NCBI RefSeq assembly: GCF_001422205.1
Contig: NZ_LMMJ01000009.1
Location: forward strand, 186,001-250,000
Source of the DNA: Curtobacterium sp. Leaf261
GTDB taxonomy: Bacteria > Actinomycetota > Actinomycetes > Actinomycetales > Microbacteriaceae
Direction: 5' to 3'
DNA: 64,000 nt
Position 1 is the first letter of the stretch; each line of letters begins with the position of its first letter. A program made the position numbers and the translations under genes. Positions 46,146 to 64,000 of the stretch are shown one piece after another. The notes below the pieces were generated by a model. The model ran no database searches. It was given only the letters and a program-made list of their open reading frames with translations, and had not been told where the DNA came from.

Positions 46146-47615
46146 GTGTCACCCCTCACCACACCCCGCGCACCCCAGGCCGGCCTTCCGACAGCCAACC
46201 GCACGACAGCCAGCCGCACGACAGCCAGCCGCACGACAGCCAGCCGCACGACAGCCAGCCGCGCGACAGCCGGACGCACGACAGCCAGCCGCTCAGCGAC
46301 CATCGCCGCCCGCACCGCCGTCACGGCCGCCACCTCGGCCGCCCTCCTCCTCATGCTCTCCGACGTCGCCCAGGCCGCGGCACCCACCGGCACCCCGCAC
46401 AGCCCAGCGGCCCATGGACCGGACACCCGCGAAGCAGGCACCCTCGCGACGCAGTCGCTCCGGGTGGCAGGATCGACCACGTTCGTCGGGAACGCGTCGG
46501 CCGACGGCGCGACGTTCTGGTCCGACGTCGCCGCGTCCGCCGAAGCGTCCTCCATCCCCGCGACCGGCACGACCGGCCCGCTCGTCATCGGCGGTACCTG
46601 TCTGCCGAAGATCGCCTCGCCGATCCTGCCGTTCGCCCCCACGGTCCCGGCGACGGACGAGGACGACTGCCTGACCTTCGCCGCCGTCGACCAGGCGGGC
46701 TCCGTCCGGTTCCGGGTCGACGACGCTGCCGCCGCCCCGGACACCGACGGCGCCTGGCTCGCGACCACGGCCGCGACCCGTCTCACCCTGGCGACGGAGG
46801 GGACCGACTTCGAGCGGCTGGCAGCACCGGGCGCACCGACCGTCACGACCGAACTGATGGCGACGTCGCGCGGTCCGATCGAGGGCACCACCGACCCGGG
46901 TACGACCGTCACGGTGCACGCCGACGACGGCACCGTCCTGTGCGACACGGTGGTCCCGAACGCCGCCGGCGAGTGGTCCTGCACCCTCGCGTCCGCGCTC
47001 ACCCCGGGCGCGCACGACATCGCGGTCATCGCCACCGACGCCGCCGGACAGCTCTCCCCCGTCACCGAGACCACCGTCCTCACGCCGCTGGTCGAGACGC
47101 CGGAGCCGCCCGTCATCGACGCGACGGAGGTGGTCGTCGGGGCGGCGATCGTCGGCACCGCGACGCCGGGCACACTGGTCACGATCCGCGACACCGAAGG
47201 CGCCGTCATCTGCTTCGCCGCACCCGCCGACGAGAACGGCGCCTGGACCTGCGAGCCCGCCGAACCCCTCGCGATCGGATCCCACGAACTGACCGCGACC
47301 GCGCGGTTCCCCGGTGGTTCGGAGAGCGCGCTCCGCACGTTCACGATCGAGATCACGGACGCCGCAGTCGACCCGGTCGACCCGGTGGACCCGGTCGACC
47401 CCGTGGACCCGGTCGACCCGACGGACCCGGTCGTGATCGTCGACCCGATCGGCACACCCGACGCCGGCGACGGCCACGGAACGACCACGACGCCGACCCA
47501 CGGCGCGGAACTCGCCTTCACCGGCGCACCCGTCGCTGTCGCACTCACGCTCGGCGGCCTGCTGCTCGCCGCCGGCGCGGCTGTCGTCATGATCGTGAGG
47601 CGCCGCCGAGCCTGA
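46146..47615 (+). CDS. LAFTG-anchored cell-wall protein with Ig-like domains
   Basis: A 489-residue surface protein. Its signal peptide is unusually long: the n-region (about 12-45) consists of RTTAS repeats, then a hydrophobic core (SAALLLMLSDVAQA) cut before AAPTG. The exported part includes a Ser/Thr-rich domain with paired Cys, then two Ig-like repeats (PGTTVTVHADDGTVLCDTVV and PGTLVTIRDTEGAVICFAAP). A DPVDPVDP wall spacer leads to the sorting signal LAFTG, a hydrophobic helix and RRRRA. LAxTG is used by actinobacterial class E-type sortases. The start (GTG 46146) follows GAAAGA; no sortase gene is in the window. Confidence 0.82.
   Translation: MSPLTTPRAPQAGLPTANRTTASRTTASRTTASRTTASRATAGRTTASRSATIAARTAVTAATSAALLLMLSDVAQAAAPTGTPHSPAAHGPDTREAGTLATQSLRVAGSTTFVGNASADGATFWSDVAASAEASSIPATGTTGPLVIGGTCLPKIASPILPFAPTVPATDEDDCLTFAAVDQAGSVRFRVDDAAAAPDTDGAWLATTAATRLTLATEGTDFERLAAPGAPTVTTELMATSRGPIEGTTDPGTTVTVHADDGTVLCDTVVPNAAGEWSCTLASALTPGAHDIAVIATDAAGQLSPVTETTVLTPLVETPEPPVIDATEVVVGAAIVGTATPGTLVTIRDTEGAVICFAAPADENGAWTCEPAEPLAIGSHELTATARFPGGSESALRTFTIEITDAAVDPVDPVDPVDPVDPVDPTDPVVIVDPIGTPDAGDGHGTTTTPTHGAELAFTGAPVAVALTLGGLLLAAGAAVVMIVRRRRA
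46200..46289. repeat. 15-bp tandem repeat in a signal-peptide n-region
   Basis: Six units of CGCACGACAGCCAGC type, two of them diverged, encode RTTAS pentads. Confidence 0.88.
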
Positions 47616-54519: not shown

Positions 54520-55140
54520 ATGAGCGGACAGACGTCGCTTCGGCGACCCGGGAAATGGACACGATCGGCTCGCGTGCGGGCCGGACTCGCACTCGGTGCG
54601 GTCGTCGGCATCGGCACCGTCGCGACCCTCGCGGCGTGGAGCGACACCGTCACGGCGACCGGCACGTTCAGCACCGGGACACTCGACCTCAAGCTGAACG
54701 ACCAGGACACCACGACGGCGCTGACCTCGCTCGCGATGACCGCCGCGAAGCCGGGCGACGCGACCTACGCGCTGCTCACGGTCCGGAACGCCGGGACGGT
54801 GGGCTTCGGCTACACGTGGACCACCGCGAGCACGAACACCGGGACCGGGACCCCGGCACTGAACACGGTGCTGACCCTCGGTGTCGCGAGCATCGGCACG
54901 GCGGCGTACCCGGACACCGGGACGGTCCCGACGTGCAACGCGACGACCTACGCGGCCGGCACCTCCGTCCAGGGCGACGCGGCGCTCAGCACGAACCCCG
55001 CCCCGGCCACCGCCAGACCGCTCGGCACAGCCAGGCTCGAGTACCTCTGCGTCAAGGCGGCGCTGCCCACGTCGGCCCCGAGCGGTGTCCAGGGGCAGAC
55101 GTCCACGGCGACACTCACCGTGACGGCGACGAACTCCTAG
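54520..55140 (+). CDS. TasA/camelysin-like secreted protein with a SipW-type signal peptide
   Basis: A 206-residue exported protein. After a basic start, a hydrophobic helix (ALGAVVGIGTVATLAAW) is followed by SDTVTATGTFSTGTLDLKLN, the hallmark of substrates of SipW-type signal peptidases. The mature part is a beta-rich domain like TasA/camelysin, proteins that form fibres in biofilm matrices of bacilli. Two Cys may form a disulfide. AGGAG lies about 10 nt before the ATG. The next gene encodes a matching signal peptidase, so the pair is probably a secretion unit. Confidence 0.82.
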   Translation: MSGQTSLRRPGKWTRSARVRAGLALGAVVGIGTVATLAAWSDTVTATGTFSTGTLDLKLNDQDTTTALTSLAMTAAKPGDATYALLTVRNAGTVGFGYTWTTASTNTGTGTPALNTVLTLGVASIGTAAYPDTGTVPTCNATTYAAGTSVQGDAALSTNPAPATARPLGTARLEYLCVKAALPTSAPSGVQGQTSTATLTVTATNS

Positions 55141-55185
55141 TCGTCACGGCCGCCGGCCGGCGATCCGCCGACCGGCCACACAGAC

Positions 55186-55209
55186 CCCCGGGCGCGGGAA
55201 CGCCCGGGG
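55186..55209 (+). promoter_or_regulatory. Intergenic hairpin between the TasA-like and signal-peptidase genes
   Basis: CCCCGGGCG (55186-55194) pairs with CGCCCGGGG (55201-55209) around 6 nt, ending 10 nt before the next start. It may attenuate transcription or hide the ribosome site, lowering peptidase relative to substrate. Confidence 0.45.
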
Positions 55210-55219
55210 AAACGGAACG

Positions 55220-56479
55220 GTGGGGACGATGTTCGGGTCATTGTCCACCAGCGCTCCACACGCGGGGCGACGGGCGCAGATGATCGGGTCATCCGCGGCC
55301 GTCGCCCCGACACCTCCCGGCGACACCGGGCGGCCGTCCCTCCCCCGTGGCGTCGTGGTCGCGCGGACCCTGCGCGAGGTCGTGCTGTGGGTCGCCGCCG
55401 CCATCGGGGTGCTCTGCCTCCTCGTCGCCGCGGCCGCCGTCCTGCTCCACGTCACACCCCTCGTGTTCCGATCGGGGTCGATGGGGCCCGGCATCCCCAC
55501 GGGGTCCGTCGGACTCGCGCAGCCGATCCCCCCGACGATGGTCCGGGTCGGACAGATCGTCTCGGTGGTGCTCCCGGACGGCACGCGGGTGACGCACCGG
55601 GTCCACGACGTCGTGATGCAGGGCGACGCCGCGCGCATCACGCTGAAGGGCGACGCGAACGCGCACCCCGATCCGGTGCCCGTCGTCACGACCTCGGTCG
55701 ACCGGGTGTTCTGGTCGACGCCCGGGCTCGGGTACCTGCTCGAGGGGGCGGCCAGACCCGCGGTCGTCTTCGTCGGCGGCGCGCTCATCGGCATGATCGC
55801 CATGTGGGGGTTCCGTCGCCCGACGCCCCTGCCGGGCGAGATCGACGACCAGGCGCCGTCGGACGACGAGTCGGGTCCCGTCGACGGGATGCCCACCGAC
55901 ACCGGCCGGGAGGCCCGCGGCCGGGTCCCCGCATCGGCTCGCGTCGCACACGCCGGCGGTCCCCGACACGCCGTGGCCGATGCCCGCCGGCCACGGCGGC
56001 ATCCCGTCGAGCGCGGTGAGCACGGGGGCGGGCACGTCGCGGCCCTGATCGCCGGCGGCGTGGTCGTCGCACTCGGCGCGACCATCGCGGTCGGTGCCGA
56101 TCCCGCGGCGGCGGCGCCGTGGACCGACCAGGTGACGGCGACGTCGCCGACGCTACAGGCCGGGAGCATGCTCCCCCCGGTGTCGTTCACGTGCAGTGCC
56201 ACGAACGGGATCACCCTGACGTGGCAACCCCCGGCGACCGGTTCGGTGCCCGTCCAGTCCTACCGGATCGACGTGGCCAACGCCGGCCTCGGGGCGAACC
56301 TGCCGAGCTCCGGGGCCCTGCCGTCGACGGCGACCAGCTACAACTACTCGTCGGCGGCGATCTCGCTGCTCACGGTCGGGAACACGTACACGTTCACCCT
56401 GTCGGCGTCGAACGGCAACTGGACCGCCTCGACCACGAGGTCCGCGACGGTGCTGCTCTCCATCGTCCGCTGCAACTGA
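55220..56479 (+). CDS. S26B (SipW/archaeal-type) signal peptidase fused to a SipW-type substrate with an Fn3-like domain
   Basis: A 419-residue fusion. Residues about 45-75 are a membrane helix followed by FRSGSMGPGIPTGSVG, whose Ser is the nucleophile; the usual bacterial Lys is replaced by His in GTRVTHRVHDV, as in S26B enzymes, and KGDANAHPDP is the conserved Asp box. A second helix follows (about 172-195). After a charged linker comes a third helix ending in ADPAAAAPWTDQVTAT, matching the start of a SipW substrate (compare WSDTVTAT in the preceding protein), and an Fn3-like exported domain (about 315-419). It may cut itself. Start GTG 55220 or ATG 55229 is uncertain. Confidence 0.8.
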   Translation: MGTMFGSLSTSAPHAGRRAQMIGSSAAVAPTPPGDTGRPSLPRGVVVARTLREVVLWVAAAIGVLCLLVAAAAVLLHVTPLVFRSGSMGPGIPTGSVGLAQPIPPTMVRVGQIVSVVLPDGTRVTHRVHDVVMQGDAARITLKGDANAHPDPVPVVTTSVDRVFWSTPGLGYLLEGAARPAVVFVGGALIGMIAMWGFRRPTPLPGEIDDQAPSDDESGPVDGMPTDTGREARGRVPASARVAHAGGPRHAVADARRPRRHPVERGEHGGGHVAALIAGGVVVALGATIAVGADPAAAAPWTDQVTATSPTLQAGSMLPPVSFTCSATNGITLTWQPPATGSVPVQSYRIDVANAGLGANLPSSGALPSTATSYNYSSAAISLLTVGNTYTFTLSASNGNWTASTTRSATVLLSIVRCN

Positions 56480-56482
56480 GCG

Positions 56483-57430
56483 TCAGCCGGATCCGGTCGG
56501 TCGGTCGGGCCCGCGCCGACCGCGCACGCGGTCGCGGCGCGGGACCGTGCGCGCGAGGACCCCGATCATCGCGAGGAGGCCGCCGAGCCCGACGCCCACG
56601 ATGAGCGGGACCACGGTGCCGGTCCATGCCAGCGCGCCCCCGATCCTCCCGTCCGGATGCGCGCGGCCCGCACGACCGGCGCCCGCGTCGTCCGGTCCTG
56701 GACTGTCCGTCGACGCGCTCCCGTCCGCGGTCCCGCTCCCGTCCCCGGTCTCGTTCTCGTTCTCGTTCTCGTTCTCGTTCGACGGTTGGTTCGACGACCC
56801 GCCGACCGCACCGACCGCGCCGAAGGTCAGGTCGACCGTGGCGGTCACCACCGGGGCGTTCGGTGGGGCGGTCGCCGTCCGGACCGCCGCGAGGAGGTGC
56901 ACGCCACGTCCCGCTCGCACGTGTCCGAGGGGGAAGGACGCGTTCGCGACGTCGGCGAGCGGACGGTTCGCGCTGACCGTCGCGATGCTGCCGTCGCAGG
57001 TCGCCACGGCGTGGTCGATGCGCCAGCCCCCGGAGCACCGGCGGATCTCGAGCCACAGACCGTCGGCTCCTGCGGAGAGGTCTCCCGACGCCCGGACCCG
57101 GACGCTGACGTCGGCATCGGCCGTGGGGGTGCCGGTGACCCGCCACTCGGCGGGTTCGCCGGGAACGATGCCCTGCGCGGTGAACCCGGGGACCTTGTCG
57201 GACACCACGGTGATCGCGCCGTCGTCGACGGGGTCGGCGGGGTCGGCGGGGTCGGCGGGATCGGCCGGCAGCGCGACAGCCACGGTCGCGGGCGGTGCCG
57301 CCGCGGCCAGGGGCGGTGCCGCCGCGGCCGGGAGCGGTGCCGCCGCGGCCGGGGGAGGAACGGAGGAGAGCGTGACGACCGCGGCGAGGCCGACGACGAC
57401 CATCGTCGTCGTCGGCCAGGCCGGGGTCAT
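56483..57430 (-). CDS. LAWTG-anchored surface protein
   Basis: A 315-residue exported protein. A signal peptide (about 1-29, ending PAAAA) is followed by a low-complexity stretch of AAAAP and PADPAD repeats, a beta-rich domain (about 70-225) with one Cys pair (EIRRCSGGW, ATCDGS), and an acidic ENENENE spacer. The C-terminus has the sorting signal LAWTG, a helix and RRDRVRGRR. The ATG overlaps the stop of the giant adhesin gene (ATGA), so the two are co-translated. Its stop lies 3 nt from that of the convergent signal-peptidase gene. No known family was recognised for the central domain. Confidence 0.75.
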   Translation of the reverse strand: MTPAWPTTTMVVVGLAAVVTLSSVPPPAAAAPLPAAAAPPLAAAAPPATVAVALPADPADPADPADPVDDGAITVVSDKVPGFTAQGIVPGEPAEWRVTGTPTADADVSVRVRASGDLSAGADGLWLEIRRCSGGWRIDHAVATCDGSIATVSANRPLADVANASFPLGHVRAGRGVHLLAAVRTATAPPNAPVVTATVDLTFGAVGAVGGSSNQPSNENENENENETGDGSGTADGSASTDSPGPDDAGAGRAGRAHPDGRIGGALAWTGTVVPLIVGVGLGGLLAMIGVLARTVPRRDRVRGRRGPDRPTGSG

Positions 57431-60400
57431 CGCCGTGACCGCCGGCGGACCGACGCGGCGAACCGGGACAGTCCGAGCATCAGGAACCCGAGCAGCAGGA
57501 TCCCGAGTCCGGAGGCCGTGATCGGGAGCACCTCCGAGCCCGTGAAGGCGAGTCCACCGGTGCGCGGCCCCGACCCGGTGGCGGTGCCGACGCCGATCAG
57601 CGTTCCCGTCCCGGGGGCGCCGACGCCGGGGGTGCCCGGCGTCCCGGGGAGACCCGGTGTGCCCGGCGTCCCCGGCGTGCCCGGAGTCCCAGGCGTGCCC
57701 GGTGTGCCGGGAGTGCCGGGGTTGCCCGGTGTCGTGTCGGCCGCGGTCACGACGACCACGATGGACTGCGGCGCCGTCGTCGCCCCGTCGACCGTCTCCG
57801 TGACGGCGACCACGTGCGTCCCGACGCCCAGGCCCGGGACCGTCACCGACCATGCCCCGGTCACCGGGTCGGCCGTCACCGTGACGGGAGTCCGCCCGTC
57901 GACGGAGATCGACACGGTCGCGCCCGGCTGGGCGGTCCCGCTCATCGGCCAGTCCGTGGACCCGTCCGCGTTCGCCTGCCGTGTCGCGCCGTTCGCCGGT
58001 GAGACGATCTCGACGGGCGCCACCGCCATGAGCGCGACCGTCTGCGGGACCGCCGAGGACGTCCGTCCGTCCACCTCCTGCGTCGCCGTGATCACGTAGC
58101 GACCGACGACGAGGTTCCGGAACGTCACGGTCCAGCGCCCGGAGGCAGCCGCACGGGTCGTGATCGAGTCGCCGTTCGAGAGCGTCACCGTCACGAGTGC
58201 ACCCGGTGTTGCGAGACCGCTCACGACCAGGTCCTGCCTGCCGTCCATCCCGGTGTCGGGGATGAGCTCGTCCGGGGTCGGCGAGGTGATGGTGATCGTC
58301 CCCGCCGGTGCCGCTGTGGACACCGTGAAGGTCGTCGATGCGGGATCGGAGACCGAACCGTCGACCGTCTGCGTCGCGACGACCCGGTGCGGACCCACCT
58401 CGAGGCCGTTCGCCGGCACCGACCAGACCCCGTCGAACCCGGCCGTGACCGTCACCGGTGTGCGACCGTCGATGCTGACCGACACCGTGGCGAGGGGTGC
58501 CGCGGTGCCCCGGATCGGGACGTCCGCCGTGCCGTCGGGACCGGACGGGCCGCCCGTGCCCGCGGGGATCGTGGCGCCGTTGGTCGGGCTCGTGATCACC
58601 GGTGCTGCCGTCGGACGGACCACGAAGGTGGTCCCGACCGCAGCCGAGGTCCCGCCGCCGACCGTCTGGGTCGCAGATGCCGTGTGGCTCCCGACACCGA
58701 CGGCGGGCACGGTCACGGACCATGCTCCGGACGGCCCGGCGGTGCTCGTCCTGGCAGTCCCGCCGTCGACCCGCACCGTGACGGTGGCGTTCGCCGCAGC
58801 GGACCCGGACAGGATCACCGGGGTGGTGTCCGTGCGCGTCCCCACCGTGTACGGCGCACCGCCGTTCGGCGTGGCGATCGTGATCGGTGCGGCCGGCCCG
58901 ACCGTCACCGGCTGGAGCACCGGGGCGCTGGTCGCACCCGAGACCGTCTCGGTGACCGAGACGACACCGACGCCGGACGGGACGCCGGGGACGTCGACGG
59001 ACCAGTTGCCGTCGCCGCCCGCGGTCGTCGTCACGCTGTGTCCGTCGCCGAGGTCGACGGTGACCGACGCCCCCGGCTCCGCGGTCCCCGCGACCGGCAC
59101 CGTCGCGGTGCCGTCCGGGGCCGCGGTGAGCACCGGGGTGCCCCCCGTCGGCGCCGTGACGGTCACGCCGTCGGCGACCACGACCGTGACGACACGGGTC
59201 TCCGGGTCCGACGTGACCCCGCCGGTGGTCTGCGTGACGGACACGGTGTGTGCGCCGTCACCGACCCCGGGGACCGAGACGGACCATCCGCCGTCGTCCC
59301 CGGCGGTCGTCGTGACCGGTGTCGTCCCGGTCCCGAGGTCGACCGTCACCGTCGCACCGGGCTCCGCGGTCCCGGCGACCGGGACGGTGACCGTCGTCGC
59401 CGGCCCGAACGCGACCGGTGTGGCTCCGTCGGCAGGCGTGTCGATGACGACCGGCGCGGCCTGTCGGACCGTGAGGTCGACCTCCGTCGCCGCGGAGACG
59501 ACACCACCGACGTCCTCGGTGACCTTCGCCGTGAAGGTGCCCGTCGGGACACCGGGGACCGTGAGGCTCCAGGTGCCGTCCGGGGCCACGACGGAGGCGG
59601 TGAGTCCGCCGCCGAGGTCGACCGTCACGACCGCGCCGGGTTCGGCGGTCCCGCGGAACGGGACCGCGAGCGTGTCGCCGCCGTCCACGATCGTGAGGCG
59701 TGCACCGTCGGCGGGGCTCGACACCGTCACCGTCGCGGCCTGCCGGATCCGGAAGGTCGTCGCCGCGGCGGACGACGTGGAGTCGTCGACGGTCTGCGTG
59801 GCGTGCACCGTGTAGCTGTCCACGCCGAGCGCCCGGAACGTGACCGTCCAGGAGCCGTCCGCCGGATCCGCGGTGGTCGTCTCGGCCTGCCCACCGACGT
59901 CGACCGACACGGCCGCACGCGGGTCGGCGACACCGGACACCACGACGTCACGCGTCCCGGATGCACCGACCACCGTGTACGCGGTGCCCGACGGCGGCGT
60001 CTGCACGACGATGCCGTCGACCCCGTCCACCCGGAAGTCGCGGGTCTCGGCCGTCGAGGTCGTCCCCTGCACCGTCTGGGTGACCGATGCGGTCTGCGGG
60101 CCGACCGGCACGCCGCCGATCTGGACGCTCCACGCGCCACCGGGGCCCGCCGTGGTCCGGGCGGTGCGGCCGGAGCCGAGGTCGACCGAGATCGCCGCCA
60201 GCGGTTCGGCGGATCCGGCGACGACCACCGTGGCCGTCCCGTCGGATCCGGCGACCACGATCCGCGCACCGTCACCCGGGGTCCGGATGACCACGGGAGC
60301 AGCTGCGGCGACCACGACCTGCCGGGTCGAGGCGTCCGAGGTCGTCGCGCCGACCGTCTGGGTCACGCTGATCGTCTGCGTGCCGACCCCGACACCGGGC

Positions 60401-63400
60401 ACCGACACCGACCACGCCCCCGATCCGTCCGCCGTCCTGGTCACGGTCGCGCCCGCCCCGAGGGTGACGGAGATCGTCGCCCCGGGTGCGGCCGTACCGG
60501 ACACCGGGACCGTCGTGGTCTGACCGTCGTCGGCGACGGTGATCGTCGTGCCGGTCGCCGGCGTGACGATGGTGACACCGGCCGCGGCCGCGACGGTCAC
60601 GCTCCTGGTGTCGGGGGCCGACGTCGTGCCGGCGACGGTCTGCGTCGTCGTCACGGTGTGCTGCCCGACGGGGACGGCGTCGACCGTGATTGTGAACCGG
60701 CCGTCGTCGCCCGCCGTCGCCTGACCGGACAGGCCGTCACCGAGCGTGGTGTCGACGCGTGCACCCGGTTCGGCGCTGCCCGTCACGGTGACCGTGGCGG
60801 TGCCGTCCGGACCGACGCCCGCGAGCGTCGTGCCGTCCGCCGGAGCATCCACCCCGAGTGCCGCGGCGACGTCGATCGTCACGTCGCGGGTGGCCGGGGC
60901 CGAGGTCGTCCCGGCGACGACCTGCGAGACCGACGCCGTGTACGAGCCCTCCGGCACGCCGGCGACGGTCACCGACCACGCACCCGACGCGTCGGCGCGG
61001 GTCGTCGCCGTGTGGCCGAACCCGAGGTCGACCTCGACGACGGCCCGAGGCTCCGCGGTGCCGCTGACGGGGACGTCCGCGGTGGTCGCCGGCGCGAAGA
61101 CCGTCGTGGTCGTGCCGGACCTCGGTGAGTCGATCGTCACGACCGCGGCCGCCACGACCGTGATCGGGCGTTCGACCGGATCCGAGAGGACACCCCCGAC
61201 GGTCTCCGTGACCGAGACGGTGTGATCGCCGACCGCGACGCCCGTGACCGAGCCGGACCAGGAGCCCGACGCGTCCGCGGTGGCGGTCGTGGTGCGGCCG
61301 CCGATCGCGATCGCGACGGTCGCCCCGGGCTCGGCGGTGCCGGACACGGGGACGGTCGCCGTCTGGTCGCGGTCCGCGACCCGAACGGTCGTGCCGGACG
61401 CCGGGGTCGTGATCACGACGTCCTCCGCGGCCCGGATCGAGAAGGTGGTCGCCGGTGCGTCGGCAGTGGTGCCGCCGACGTCCTGGGTGGCCCGGACGGT
61501 GTACCCGTCGACACCGAGACCGGTGAAGGTGACCGACCACGTGCCGGTCGAGCCGTCCGCGGTGGTCTGCTCGGTGTCGCCGCCGGTCCGGACCGTGACG
61601 CCGGCGCCCGGTTCGGCGACACCGGACACGACCACGTCGCGGGTCCCGTCGGCGCCGACCACGGAGTACGTCGTGCCGGTGGCGGGGGTCTGGACGACGA
61701 TGCCCTCGCCCGCGGCCACCGAGAACGGGTGCTCGACCGCGGCGGAGGTGGTCCCGCCGACCGACTGGGTCACCGACGCCGTGTACGCGCCGACGTGGAC
61801 GCCGTCGACGGTGACCGACCACACGCCCCCCGGGCCTGCCGTGGTCGTGGCCGTGCCGGCCGCGCCGAGGTCGACGGTGATCGTGGCGCCCGGCTCCGCG
61901 GAGCCGCTCACCACGACGGACGCGACGGCCGTCGGTCCGGCGACCACCACGGTGGATCCGGACGCCGGCGTGCGGACGACGAGCTCTGCACCCGGGGCGA
62001 CCGTGACCGGCCGGGTGACCGGTTCGGACACACCACCGCCGACGGTCTGCGTCGCGACGATGGTCCGGTCGCCGACGGGCACCCCGGGGATCGTGACCGA
62101 CCACGTGCCGTTCGCCGCGACCGTCGTCGTCGCGGAGCGGCCGGAGCCGATCGCGACGTCGATCGTGGCACCGGACTGTGCGCTGCCGGAGACCCGGATG
62201 GTCGCGGTCTGGTCGGCATCCGCGACGGTGATCGTCGCACCGGTGTCCGGGCTCGTGATCGCGAGGGCGGTCGCCGGTCGGACGGACAGGGTCTGCGTGA
62301 CCGGCGACGACGTGGTGTCGCCGACGGTCTGGGTGACCGAGATCGAGTGCGCGCCGACGGCGACACCGGGGACCGACGTCGCCCAGCGGCCGTCACCGCC
62401 CGCGGTCGTGGTCACCGGGGTGTTCCCGCTGATGGTCACGACGACCGCAGCCCCCGCCTGGGCAGAGCCGGAGACCGGGATGGAGGCGGTGGTGCCGGCA
62501 TCGACGACGGTGACCGTGGCGCCGGGGGTCGGCGCGGCGATCGACAGCGCATCCCCCGGTGCGACGGTGAACGTGGTCGTGACGGCGGCGGAGGTCGACC
62601 CCGCGACCGTCTGGGTCGCGGAGGCGCGGTGGTTCCCGACTGCGACACCGGTGAAGTCGGCGCTCCATGCACCGTCCCTCCCGGCCGTGACGGTCTGCGC
62701 CGTCCCGTCGTCGAGCGTGACGCGGACGGCTGCGGCCGCCTCCGCGGCCCCGCTGACGGTCACGGTCGTGGCCGAGTCGCCCTGGGCGACCGCGATCGTC
62801 GAGCCGTCACCCGGCCGCGCGATCGAGATCGGGTCGGCGACACCGACGCGGATCGGCACGTCGACGGCCGTCGAGACGGTGTCGCCGACGCGCTGGGTGA
62901 CGCGCACCACCTGGTCGCCGGCGGTGACGCCGGCCACGTCCACGCTCCATGCGCCGTCGCGGTCCGCCTGCACCGAGGCCGAGTGGTCGCCACCGAGCTC
63001 GACCACGACGGTCGCGGTGGGCTCGGCGGTACCGGAGACCGTGACGGTCGTCGAGCTCGTGTCGTCCGCGACGGTGTACGCCTGGTTCCGCGCGGGAGCG
63101 GCGACGACGAGCGATGCACCGGCCGCGACGGTGAAGGTGGACCGGACGACCGACGAGGTCGACCCGTCGACGGTCTGGGTCGCGGCGAGGCGGTGGTCGC
63201 CGGTGCCGAGGCCCGGCACCTGGACGGACCAGCTGCCGCCGGCGTCCGCAGACGTCGTGACGGGGGTGCCGCCGTCGACCGTCAGCGTGACGGTCGCACC
63301 CGGCGCGGCGTCACCGGCCACGGTGGCCGTCGTCGTCGAGGAGTCCTCCGCCACGGTGATCGTGCTGCCGCCGGCGGGCTGGCGGACGTCGAGCGCCGGG

Positions 63401-64000
63401 GCGGCGATGATCGTCACGGTCCGGGCGACGGCGGTGCTCGTCGTGCCGCCGATCGACTGCACGACGGTCCCGACGTGTCGGCCGACCGGGACGCCGGGAA
63501 CGCTCGTCGACCATGCGCCGTCACCGTCGACGGTCGCCGTCGCGGTGAGACCGGACCCGAGGTCGACCCGGACGAGTGCGCCGACCTGTCCCGTCCCGGA
63601 GAAGGGCACGTCGCGCGTGGCGTCGACGTCGGCGACGGTGCGGGACACGTCCCCGGCGGGGTCGGTCACGACGAGCGGGGAGCCGGCCGTCACGGTCACC
63701 GTGCGCGTCACCGCCCGCCCGATGAGACCGTCGACGGTCTGCGTCGCGCTCACGGAGTACTCCCCGACCGGCAGACCGGCGAACGAGGTCGTCCAGGTCC
63801 CGTCGGTCGCGGTGACCGTCCGGGACGCACCGGTCGACAGCGTCACGGTGACGCTCGCCCCGACGGCGGCCGTGCCGGACACCGGGAGGTCGACGCTCGA
63901 CGCGGTGTCCGCGACGACGACGTCGGTGACGGGCTGCGCCGGGTCGGTGACGGCGAGCGGCGCGCTCGCGGCGACCGTGAGCGGCTGGTCCGGACTGGAG
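57427..64000 (-). CDS. Giant repeat adhesin with collagen-like stalk and LAFTG anchor, N-terminus beyond the window
   Basis: At least 2,190 residues, open to the window edge, so start, signal peptide and any ligand domain are not seen. The visible part has about 22 Ig-like units of roughly 93-95 residues, each with VxVSGTAEPGATVxVxLG, then GxWSVxVPGVxVGxHT and VTQTVxGTTS, as in large bacterial adhesins. After the last unit is a PGTPGTPG collagen-like stretch (57626-57725), then the sorting signal LAFTG, a helix and RRRSRR. It is a wall-anchored surface fibre, probably for adhesion or biofilm. It is translationally coupled to the LAWTG protein. Confidence 0.88.
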   Translation of the reverse strand, partial: SSPDQPLTVAASAPLAVTDPAQPVTDVVVADTASSVDLPVSGTAAVGASVTVTLSTGASRTVTATDGTWTTSFAGLPVGEYSVSATQTVDGLIGRAVTRTVTVTAGSPLVVTDPAGDVSRTVADVDATRDVPFSGTGQVGALVRVDLGSGLTATATVDGDGAWSTSVPGVPVGRHVGTVVQSIGGTTSTAVARTVTIIAAPALDVRQPAGGSTITVAEDSSTTTATVAGDAAPGATVTLTVDGGTPVTTSADAGGSWSVQVPGLGTGDHRLAATQTVDGSTSSVVRSTFTVAAGASLVVAAPARNQAYTVADDTSSTTVTVSGTAEPTATVVVELGGDHSASVQADRDGAWSVDVAGVTAGDQVVRVTQRVGDTVSTAVDVPIRVGVADPISIARPGDGSTIAVAQGDSATTVTVSGAAEAAAAVRVTLDDGTAQTVTAGRDGAWSADFTGVAVGNHRASATQTVAGSTSAAVTTTFTVAPGDALSIAAPTPGATVTVVDAGTTASIPVSGSAQAGAAVVVTISGNTPVTTTAGGDGRWATSVPGVAVGAHSISVTQTVGDTTSSPVTQTLSVRPATALAITSPDTGATITVADADQTATIRVSGSAQSGATIDVAIGSGRSATTTVAANGTWSVTIPGVPVGDRTIVATQTVGGGVSEPVTRPVTVAPGAELVVRTPASGSTVVVAGPTAVASVVVSGSAEPGATITVDLGAAGTATTTAGPGGVWSVTVDGVHVGAYTASVTQSVGGTTSAAVEHPFSVAAGEGIVVQTPATGTTYSVVGADGTRDVVVSGVAEPGAGVTVRTGGDTEQTTADGSTGTWSVTFTGLGVDGYTVRATQDVGGTTADAPATTFSIRAAEDVVITTPASGTTVRVADRDQTATVPVSGTAEPGATVAIAIGGRTTTATADASGSWSGSVTGVAVGDHTVSVTETVGGVLSDPVERPITVVAAAVVTIDSPRSGTTTTVFAPATTADVPVSGTAEPRAVVEVDLGFGHTATTRADASGAWSVTVAGVPEGSYTASVSQVVAGTTSAPATRDVTIDVAAALGVDAPADGTTLAGVGPDGTATVTVTGSAEPGARVDTTLGDGLSGQATAGDDGRFTITVDAVPVGQHTVTTTQTVAGTTSAPDTRSVTVAAAAGVTIVTPATGTTITVADDGQTTTVPVSGTAAPGATISVTLGAGATVTRTADGSGAWSVSVPGVGVGTQTISVTQTVGATTSDASTRQVVVAAAAPVVIRTPGDGARIVVAGSDGTATVVVAGSAEPLAAISVDLGSGRTARTTAGPGGAWSVQIGGVPVGPQTASVTQTVQGTTSTAETRDFRVDGVDGIVVQTPPSGTAYTVVGASGTRDVVVSGVADPRAAVSVDVGGQAETTTADPADGSWTVTFRALGVDSYTVHATQTVDDSTSSAAATTFRIRQAATVTVSSPADGARLTIVDGGDTLAVPFRGTAEPGAVVTVDLGGGLTASVVAPDGTWSLTVPGVPTGTFTAKVTEDVGGVVSAATEVDLTVRQAAPVVIDTPADGATPVAFGPATTVTVPVAGTAEPGATVTVDLGTGTTPVTTTAGDDGGWSVSVPGVGDGAHTVSVTQTTGGVTSDPETRVVTVVVADGVTVTAPTGGTPVLTAAPDGTATVPVAGTAEPGASVTVDLGDGHSVTTTAGGDGNWSVDVPGVPSGVGVVSVTETVSGATSAPVLQPVTVGPAAPITIATPNGGAPYTVGTRTDTTPVILSGSAAANATVTVRVDGGTARTSTAGPSGAWSVTVPAVGVGSHTASATQTVGGGTSAAVGTTFVVRPTAAPVITSPTNGATIPAGTGGPSGPDGTADVPIRGTAAPLATVSVSIDGRTPVTVTAGFDGVWSVPANGLEVGPHRVVATQTVDGSVSDPASTTFTVSTAAPAGTITITSPTPDELIPDTGMDGRQDLVVSGLATPGALVTVTLSNGDSITTRAAASGRWTVTFRNLVVGRYVITATQEVDGRTSSAVPQTVALMAVAPVEIVSPANGATRQANADGSTDWPMSGTAQPGATVSISVDGRTPVTVTADPVTGAWSVTVPGLGVGTHVVAVTETVDGATTAPQSIVVVVTAADTTPGNPGTPGTPGTPGTPGTPGTPGTPGLPGTPGTPGVGAPGTGTLIGVGTATGSGPRTGGLAFTGSEVLPITASGLGILLLGFLMLGLSRFAASVRRRSRR
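57626..57725. repeat. Collagen-like GTP repeat in the adhesin stalk
   Basis: About ten tandem 9-bp units encode PGT triplets (some PGN, PGL or PGV) next to the anchor. Confidence 0.88.

Follow-up and report, generated by a model that had tools for sequence, protein, structure and literature searches.

Gene organization of the locus

The window analysed here is a stretch of 64,000 nucleotides from Curtobacterium sp. Leaf261 (contig C9, NZ_LMMJ01000009.1, positions 186,001 to 250,000; genome of 3.93 Mb), and the locus of interest consists of two adjacent genes on its forward strand, which also carries all the protein features described for them below. The first gene (54520..55140) encodes a TasA/camelysin-type fibre subunit of 206 amino acids with an N-terminal SipW-type signal, assigned from the profiles TIGR04088 and PF12389 and from a fold match. 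The second gene (55220..56479), assigned from profile matches and from the G+C content of third codon positions (GC3), encodes a single polypeptide in which an S26B signal peptidase is followed by a linker, a third transmembrane helix, a SipW-type junction and an Fn3 domain. A first-pass annotation, made from the sequence alone, had given the coordinates of both open reading frames (ORFs), which were confirmed. It had also described the second product as a peptidase joined to a third helix and an Fn3 domain in one ORF, which is borne out by TIGR02228, PF00041 and the helices of our structural model.

The fusion protein is 419 residues long when read from GTG 55220, the numbering used here, and 399 residues long from ATG 55280 (residue 21). 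The codon-usage gene caller picked 55280, and translation may begin there and not at GTG 55220. GC3 is highest in one common frame for the peptidase (0.95) and the tail (0.97), and is undecided between frames in the linker (0.86 versus 0.88) and in the third helix (0.89 versus 0.91).

Structure of the fusion protein

The N-terminal part of the fusion matches TIGR02228, the archaeal-type signal peptidase I profile, with 56.7 bits over residues 55–173 (cut-off 51.85), and the same profile matches all 29 members of alignment A1, which comprises 29 of the Fn3-type fusions described below, at E ≤ 10. The equivalog profile of Bacillus SipW (NF046067) is not reached (45.4 bits versus 190). Judged by these scores, the peptidase is of the same class as Bacillus SipW and lies outside its orthologue group. 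The hallmark of S26B enzymes is a Ser-His pair with a GD.N motif and an Asp downstream. Catalytic Ser87 of the SGSM motif (55478..55480) is invariant in A1 (29/29), and so are K143-G144-D145-A146-N147 of the KGDAN motif, with Asp145 at 55652..55654, and D151. The alignment column for the catalytic His holds His129 instead of His126; from comparison with the ITHRV of locus L004, the catalytic residue is most likely His126 of the THRV motif (55595..55597).

Our AlphaFold2 model of the fusion has a mean predicted local distance difference test (pLDDT) score of 58.7, with block means of 40–76 in the catalytic part and 39–51 in the linker. It contains long helices at residues 43–75, 178–197 and 272–290, and strands from residue 323 onwards. 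The first two of these helices are the first and second membrane helices (55346..55444 and 55751..55810). They are followed by a variable hydrophilic linker, predicted to be cytoplasmic (approximately residues 201–263, 55820..56008), which is delimited by column entropy (mean 1.97 bits over residues 200–262 in A1, with many gaps). The third helix (56033..56089), placed by AlphaFold2 and hydropathy, is predicted to be an internal signal. It is followed by A296-A297-A298 (56105..56113), the predicted positions −3 to −1 according to conservation in A1, and by the segment APWTDQVTATSPTLQAGSML (56114..56173), which its weight-matrix rank marks as a putative counterpart of the TasA donor strand.

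The remainder of the tail is an Fn3 domain (residues 320–419, 56177..56476), matched by Pfam fn3 PF00041 with 33.6 bits over residues 322–401 (cut-off 25). Comparison of folds with VIA-align supports the Fn3 assignment over residues 314–415 (Z up to 12.0, root-mean-square deviation 2.1, 90 residues aligned). Two cysteines, Cys325 near the start and Cys418 at the end of the domain, are conserved in all 29 members of A1.

The TasA-like subunit

The product of 54520..55140 matches TIGR04088 (cognate_SipW) at its N-terminus (residues 23–55, 30.2 bits, cut-off 19) and Pfam camelysin PF12389 (24.4 bits, cut-off 22.5). Its AlphaFold2 model has a mean pLDDT of 69, which is better over residues 70–206. 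Against the PDB, the TasA fibre 8aur ranks first (E 2.5e-4) and the archaeal bundling pili 7ueg second (E 4.2e-4). These two are the only fold matches below 0.001, with moderate TM-scores of 0.38–0.45; above this value several FimA-type pilins appear among other folds. The profile of the subunit gives a weak match to AbpX (E 0.036). The label TasA-like fits the modelled fold, despite a score of 19.2 bits with the TasA equivalog NF046066, far under its cut-off of 450. Cleavage of the subunit is expected at T-L-A↓A-W, after base 54633.

The junction as a predicted cleavage site

The predicted cut in the fusion is A298↓A299-P300-W301 (AAA↓APW), between bases 56113 and 56114. Throughout A1, position −3 is Ala (29/29) and position −1 is Ala (27) or Gly (2), whereas position −2 (V, I, D, A, F or Q) and position +1 are variable; the column entropies from −5 to +1 are 2.10, 2.00, 0.00, 1.68, 0.36 and 1.52 bits. 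Pro occupies +2 in 28 of the 29 sequences, and F or W occupies +3 in all of them. This pattern of conservation looks like that of a cleavage site. A small-x-small-x(1,2)-aromatic motif is present in 36/36 Fn3 tails and 22/22 LamG tails, although the motif alone is weak evidence because of Ala-rich stretches and related rows.

A weight matrix was built from 66 unique TasA-like junctions forming 17 clusters, a set in which the window's own TasA segment was mis-registered. Scores were obtained for 65 of 77 long S26B proteins, including a few non-fusions (L097, L099, L101 and L126). One protein was dropped by the script and 11 had no findable junction, namely six proteins of a 294-residue type, two of sortase type and the fusions L041, L048 and L203. 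The third-helix junction is ranked first in 42 of the 65 proteins and within the top three in 54; when only the 15 positions after the aromatic residue are used, it is first in 17 of 65, with a median rank of 4. The resemblance of the junction to the SipW-type signal of the TasA-like protein, which had been proposed from the letters, is therefore above chance. That the third helix and the junction behave as a SipW-type signal is supported at the level of sequence.

Recurrence of the fusion

The first-pass annotation had suggested looking for the same domain order in other Actinobacteria, and it occurs in other genera and families. The window protein as query finds a match in 59 of 66 Curtobacterium genomes, and fused ORFs were read in 35 of the 66, at 41 loci. 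A profile of the LamG-type fusions gives 27 full-length, single-frame matches in 25 of the 66 genomes, 9 of which are additional to the 35 and are counted from the profile match alone. Fusions are present in at least 44 of the 66 Curtobacterium genomes, which are of different species; this is a lower bound, the 22 others not having been read through. Relatives with two separate genes had been considered as a sign that a stop codon was missing by error, and both the fused and the split state do exist. At most of the Fn3-type loci read, the gene order is TasA-like gene, fusion, sbcD and sbcC. Genes at the compared loci were called with a simple codon-usage script, so their overlaps and starts are predictions, and the names sbcD and sbcC, as well as TasA-like for neighbours outside the window, were assigned by reading. 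The same order of parts is found in named records from Frigoribacterium, Marmoricola sp. URHB0036 and an Intrasporangiaceae metagenome-assembled genome (MAG).

Across the phylum, 12 of 198 genomes (our own included) have a LamG-fusion profile match at E ≤ 1e-25, a strict threshold that makes these counts lower bounds. Peptidase and cargo are fused in our own genome and in G156, G208, G151, G110 and G259, of which these five belong to other families; the cargo is not LamG in every one. They are split in G205, G072 and G138. The stretches of G194 and G178 contain an S26B gene with no such cargo seen, and the G172 stretches contain LamG proteins with no peptidase in those stretches.

Altogether 162 distinct S26B ORFs were collected, and 62 of them extend more than 230 residues past the catalytic Ser. 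By C-terminal letter pattern 36 of these are Fn3-type and 22 are LamG-type; Pfam was run on three LamG fusions (L052, L047 and L165) and the window protein, and it finds LamG in all three. TafC (NF052521) was considered as a name for the LamG tails and rejected, the best score being 39.7 of 410 bits, far under the cut-off, so that the match indicates LamG only; no paper on a TafC fimbria was found among the open-access matches listed.

One ORF of a Candidatus Microgenomatus MAG (L182:117-1226) contains an S26B peptidase, an extra helix and a lamin tail domain (PF00932, E 1.4e-16), together with a SipW-like segment by reading. It is perhaps the same design outside the Actinomycetota. A Lachnospiraceae MAG (L169), other than the Pseudobutyrivibrio MAG described below, encodes a long S26B protein that is sortase-like by reading only.

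Stand-alone tails and split units

A hidden Markov model (HMM) built from the 22 fused LamG tails together with the third helix was searched against 11,019 ORFs. It matches 10 distinct stand-alone proteins (E 2.5e-75 to 1.6e-68), nine of which span model positions 7–16 to 279–281 and thus include the helix, and one more non-fused protein in part (E 5.8e-5). In all nine of the listed Curtobacterium S26B/LamG pairs, the two genes as called share 4 bases. Planobispora (L162) has an unfused S26B gene followed, with no overlap as called, by a gene for a LamG protein with a signal, and both trees place it close to the main clade of fusions.

For the Fn3 type, profile comparison relates the fused tails to four stand-alone tails (L051 and L070–L072) with 92.8%, in loci where one gene lies between peptidase and tail, and to the tail of L202 with 94.5%, where the genes of tail and S26B peptidase share 4 bases. 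The corresponding value is 100% for LamG against LamG and 0.7% for the control, Fn3 against LamG. The stand-alone relative L070 passes TIGR04088 (28.1, cut-off 19). These data support the existence, for both cargo types, of stand-alone homologues that have an N-terminal SipW-type signal and are encoded beside unfused peptidases.

Two other arrangements were seen among the S26B loci. The 294-residue type (L065:5807-6691 and eight similar loci) carries additional sequence, reading as the start of a SipW-type protein (VNVTTITNTA etc.), between helix 2 and a helix at the C-terminus. A Curtobacterium cluster (L067, L068 and L069) has two or three small proteins, signal-bearing by reading, encoded one after another upstream of an unfused S26B gene.

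Signal peptidases of the genome and origin of the fusions

TIGR02228 identifies five S26B genes in this genome, three fused and two split, each located just downstream of a TasA-like gene (by reading outside the window). The fused ones are the window gene (Fn3) and those on contigs C10 (L196, LamG) and C12 (L052, LamG). The split ones are on C4 (L065), with a LamG protein, and on C1 (L217), with another SipW-type cargo by reading; the genes of the C1 unit are separated by a gap of 44 bases. None of the three ordinary type I signal peptidases of the genome has such a tail.

A tree of 64 S26B domains, four of them from proteins of the 294-residue type, places the window peptidase in a clade of 12 rows with 11 unfused enzymes (support 100/100), apart from the main fusion clade. 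Its nearest rows are L004–L006, with support of only 89/68, and the operons of these three carry a stand-alone Fn3-type tail. A single origin of the 27 Fn3/LamG fusions is rejected by the approximately unbiased (AU) test (p 0.003), in which the lamin-tail fusion and four more were kept within the other 37 rows. This value needs care, as the branch of the window is long and the grouping was chosen once a first tree had already separated the window. The analysis shows that the Fn3/LamG fusions arose more than once. That these two functions were joined repeatedly would be consistent with selection for coupling them physically.

Neighbouring surface proteins

Three further genes of the window encode surface or repeat proteins. 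A protein of at least 2,190 residues with Big_6 (bacterial Ig) repeats is encoded on the reverse strand at 57427–63999, running past the edge of the window, and ends in LAFTG, a helix and a basic tail. A smaller surface protein with an LAWTG motif lies at 56483–57430 on the same strand, and a 489-residue Ig-repeat protein with an LAFTG motif at 46146–47615 on the forward strand. From these endings, all three are presumably anchored by sortase.

Proposed mechanism and alternatives

We think it probable that this is a TasA-SipW matrix unit of actinobacteria whose dedicated peptidase is made in a single polypeptide with another SipW-type substrate and is cut from it at the membrane. In the proposed topology the S26B domain would lie on the outer face of the membrane, flanked by helices 1 and 2. 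The flexible cytoplasmic linker would lead to helix 3, which would act as an internal SipW-type signal and export the Fn3 domain. An S26B active site, either its own (in cis) or that of a neighbour (in trans), would then cut A298↓A299, so that a SipW-like peptidase would stay in the membrane and an Fn3 protein would be freed with the TasA-like donor-strand segment as its N-terminus. The upstream TasA-like subunit would be processed by the same peptidase. Given its complete Fn3 fold and its pair of conserved cysteines, the freed tail would best be interpreted as a minor subunit of TapA/CapP type, which would give a donor strand to the TasA-like subunit and start or cap the fibre; LamG tails would be the same part with a lectin-like domain.

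The steps of this mechanism differ in strength. Cleavage of the tail is quite likely from the pattern at the junction, and processing of the upstream subunit by the fusion peptidase is likely to almost the same degree. Cleavage in cis can be proposed only tentatively, and a TapA-like role of the freed tail, argued by analogy, is likewise conceivable but falls short of probable. The first-pass annotation had proposed that the peptidase may cut its own tail, releasing an Fn3 protein, and may also process the TasA-like subunit. The peptidase-substrate fusion it described has proved real, conserved and recurrent, with a SipW-like third helix and junction according to the −3/−1 pattern and the weight matrix; the self-cleavage it proposed keeps the tentative standing just given.

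Several observations weigh against this mechanism. The Curtobacterium Fn3-type sites read X-Pro-aromatic (Pro at +2 with the aromatic at +3, 28/29), unlike TasA with Phe at P2′. The block of residues 294–301 and helix 3 are equally conserved (1.10 bits each), so the case for a cleavage site depends on the alternation between −3/−1 and −2/+1 and not on conservation of the block. In its own protein the window junction ranks second of 379 positions with the full matrix, not first, and fourth of 379 when scoring is restricted to the 15 positions that follow the aromatic residue. TIGR04088 matches 0/29 of the full-length fusions at E ≤ 10; as a detector of internal signals this profile was set aside as too insensitive here, since in this genome only the TasA-like gene of the window is reported at E ≤ 0.1. 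A plain HMM of the fused Fn3 tails matched only one of four stand-alone relatives (L051, E 1.1e-6), and the two stand-alone Fn3-type tail sets score only 3.5% against each other in profile comparison. Because AlphaFold2 modelled the catalytic part and the linker poorly, the structure gives no measure of the reach of the active site in cis. Finally, the genome encodes three type I signal peptidases that might act in place of the fusion.

This last point favours the strongest alternative, which is that the site is cut by an ordinary type I signal peptidase or by another S26B enzyme, of which the genome has four, and that the fusion merely ensures that peptidase and substrate are made together and in the same place. 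Such a cut would also agree with the sequence AAA↓A, which signal peptidases in general accept. Sites with an aromatic residue at P2′, such as that of TasA, are poor for LepB according to the part of PMC10269814 consulted, and a cut after the small-x-small motif would put an aromatic residue at P2′ in the LamG fusions of Frigoribacterium and Marmoricola. However, this argument does not apply to the window site and thus counts only weakly against another enzyme, and we regard this alternative as unlikely but the most serious of the three. A somewhat less likely one is that the tail is not cut at all, helix 3 being an anchor. The Fn3 or LamG domain would then remain attached to the peptidase and serve as a platform for assembly or a receptor for substrates, and its membrane-proximal segment might hold the fibre base. 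The three-helix AlphaFold2 model and the Pro at +2 of the Curtobacterium site agree with an uncut tail, and the membrane association of TapA, given in the consulted part of PMC10151520, makes a tethered initiator plausible. However, conserved −3 and −1 positions beside a variable −2 (Asp, Gln and Phe included) and +1 are unexpected for a plain anchor, the stand-alone homologues begin with a matching segment and have at most one helix by hydropathy, and in the trees Fn3 tails are interspersed with LamG tails behind one kind of junction. That a sequencing error or a lost stop codon joined two genes is practically dismissed: split neighbours overlapping by 4 bases would need little change to become joined, but the fusion recurs in at least 44 of 66 Curtobacterium genomes of different species and in other genera, and GC3 favours one frame on both sides.

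If the tail is cut as we propose, a bolder and rather unlikely extension is that each peptidase carries its own fibre-starting subunit and cuts it once in cis, giving one initiator per peptidase at the place where TasA-like subunits emerge. What the fibre end binds would then depend on which tail (Fn3, LamG or other) the peptidase carries, and such self-loading units would have had more than one origin in the Actinomycetota and perhaps elsewhere, as in the lamin-tail version of the Microgenomates MAG.

Most knowledge of TasA-type fibres comes from Bacillus and archaea. With the present locus, actinobacteria, including leaf and soil genera, gain a recurring matrix-unit layout, of which this genome alone has three fused and two split versions. 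The design is new in that a processing enzyme carries a probable fibre component. Three questions become testable: whether an S26B peptidase processes in cis, which protein serves as the minor subunit of TasA systems in actinobacteria, and whether exchanging the cargo between Fn3 and LamG retunes fibre binding.

Comparison with known systems

Among the matches listed, open-access titles and the beginnings of abstracts contain no report of a fusion between an S26B peptidase and a SipW-type substrate; subscription papers and preprints lie outside this scope. The published systems below are compared as far as the consulted parts of the cited sources describe them. A formally similar case from our own collection is a fusion of S26B with a class B sortase (L157:4740-6185, Pseudobutyrivibrio MAG; TIGR03064, E 2.1e-49), in which a C-terminal domain also lies behind an added helix. 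Unlike in the window protein, the added part there is an enzyme, and no small-x-small-aromatic junction was found in it. The archaeal bundling pili (AbpA/AbpX) are built, like the proposed fibre, from TasA-like donor-strand subunits, and the model of the window subunit matches 7ueg.

The sipW-tasA/capP/calY system of B. cereus resembles the present unit in having two TasA-type subunits and a SipW-processed, chaperone-like third component, CapP (PMC13082335). However, the genes are separate there, and no peptidase fusion is described in the part of that source consulted.

The matches listed for the tail give no support to a direct relationship with TapA, which is absent from the 50 matches listed; no direct comparison was made, and a relationship is not disproved by this. 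The domain is Fn3 or LamG in the fusions and a V-set Ig fold in TapA, which also weighs against the proposed mechanism and makes the TapA role an analogy. The nearest parallel in organization is the tapA-sipW-tasA operon of B. subtilis, where the genes for a TasA-fold subunit and for a minor protein processed by SipW likewise accompany that of a dedicated S26B peptidase (PMC10151520, PMC9674648). Residues 28–38, the mature N-terminus of TasA, form the donor strand for the next subunit in the fibre (PMC9674648), and TapA, which initiates TasA fibres, has a mature N-terminus resembling this strand and a complete Ig-like domain held by the Cys92–Cys188 disulfide (PMC10151520). The fused tail is like TapA in its TasA-like N-terminal segment, its complete beta-sandwich and a cysteine pair reaching the end of the domain. 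Whereas peptidase and minor subunit are encoded in B. subtilis by separate genes, the stop of tapA overlapping the start of sipW (PMC10151520), in Curtobacterium they form one chain.

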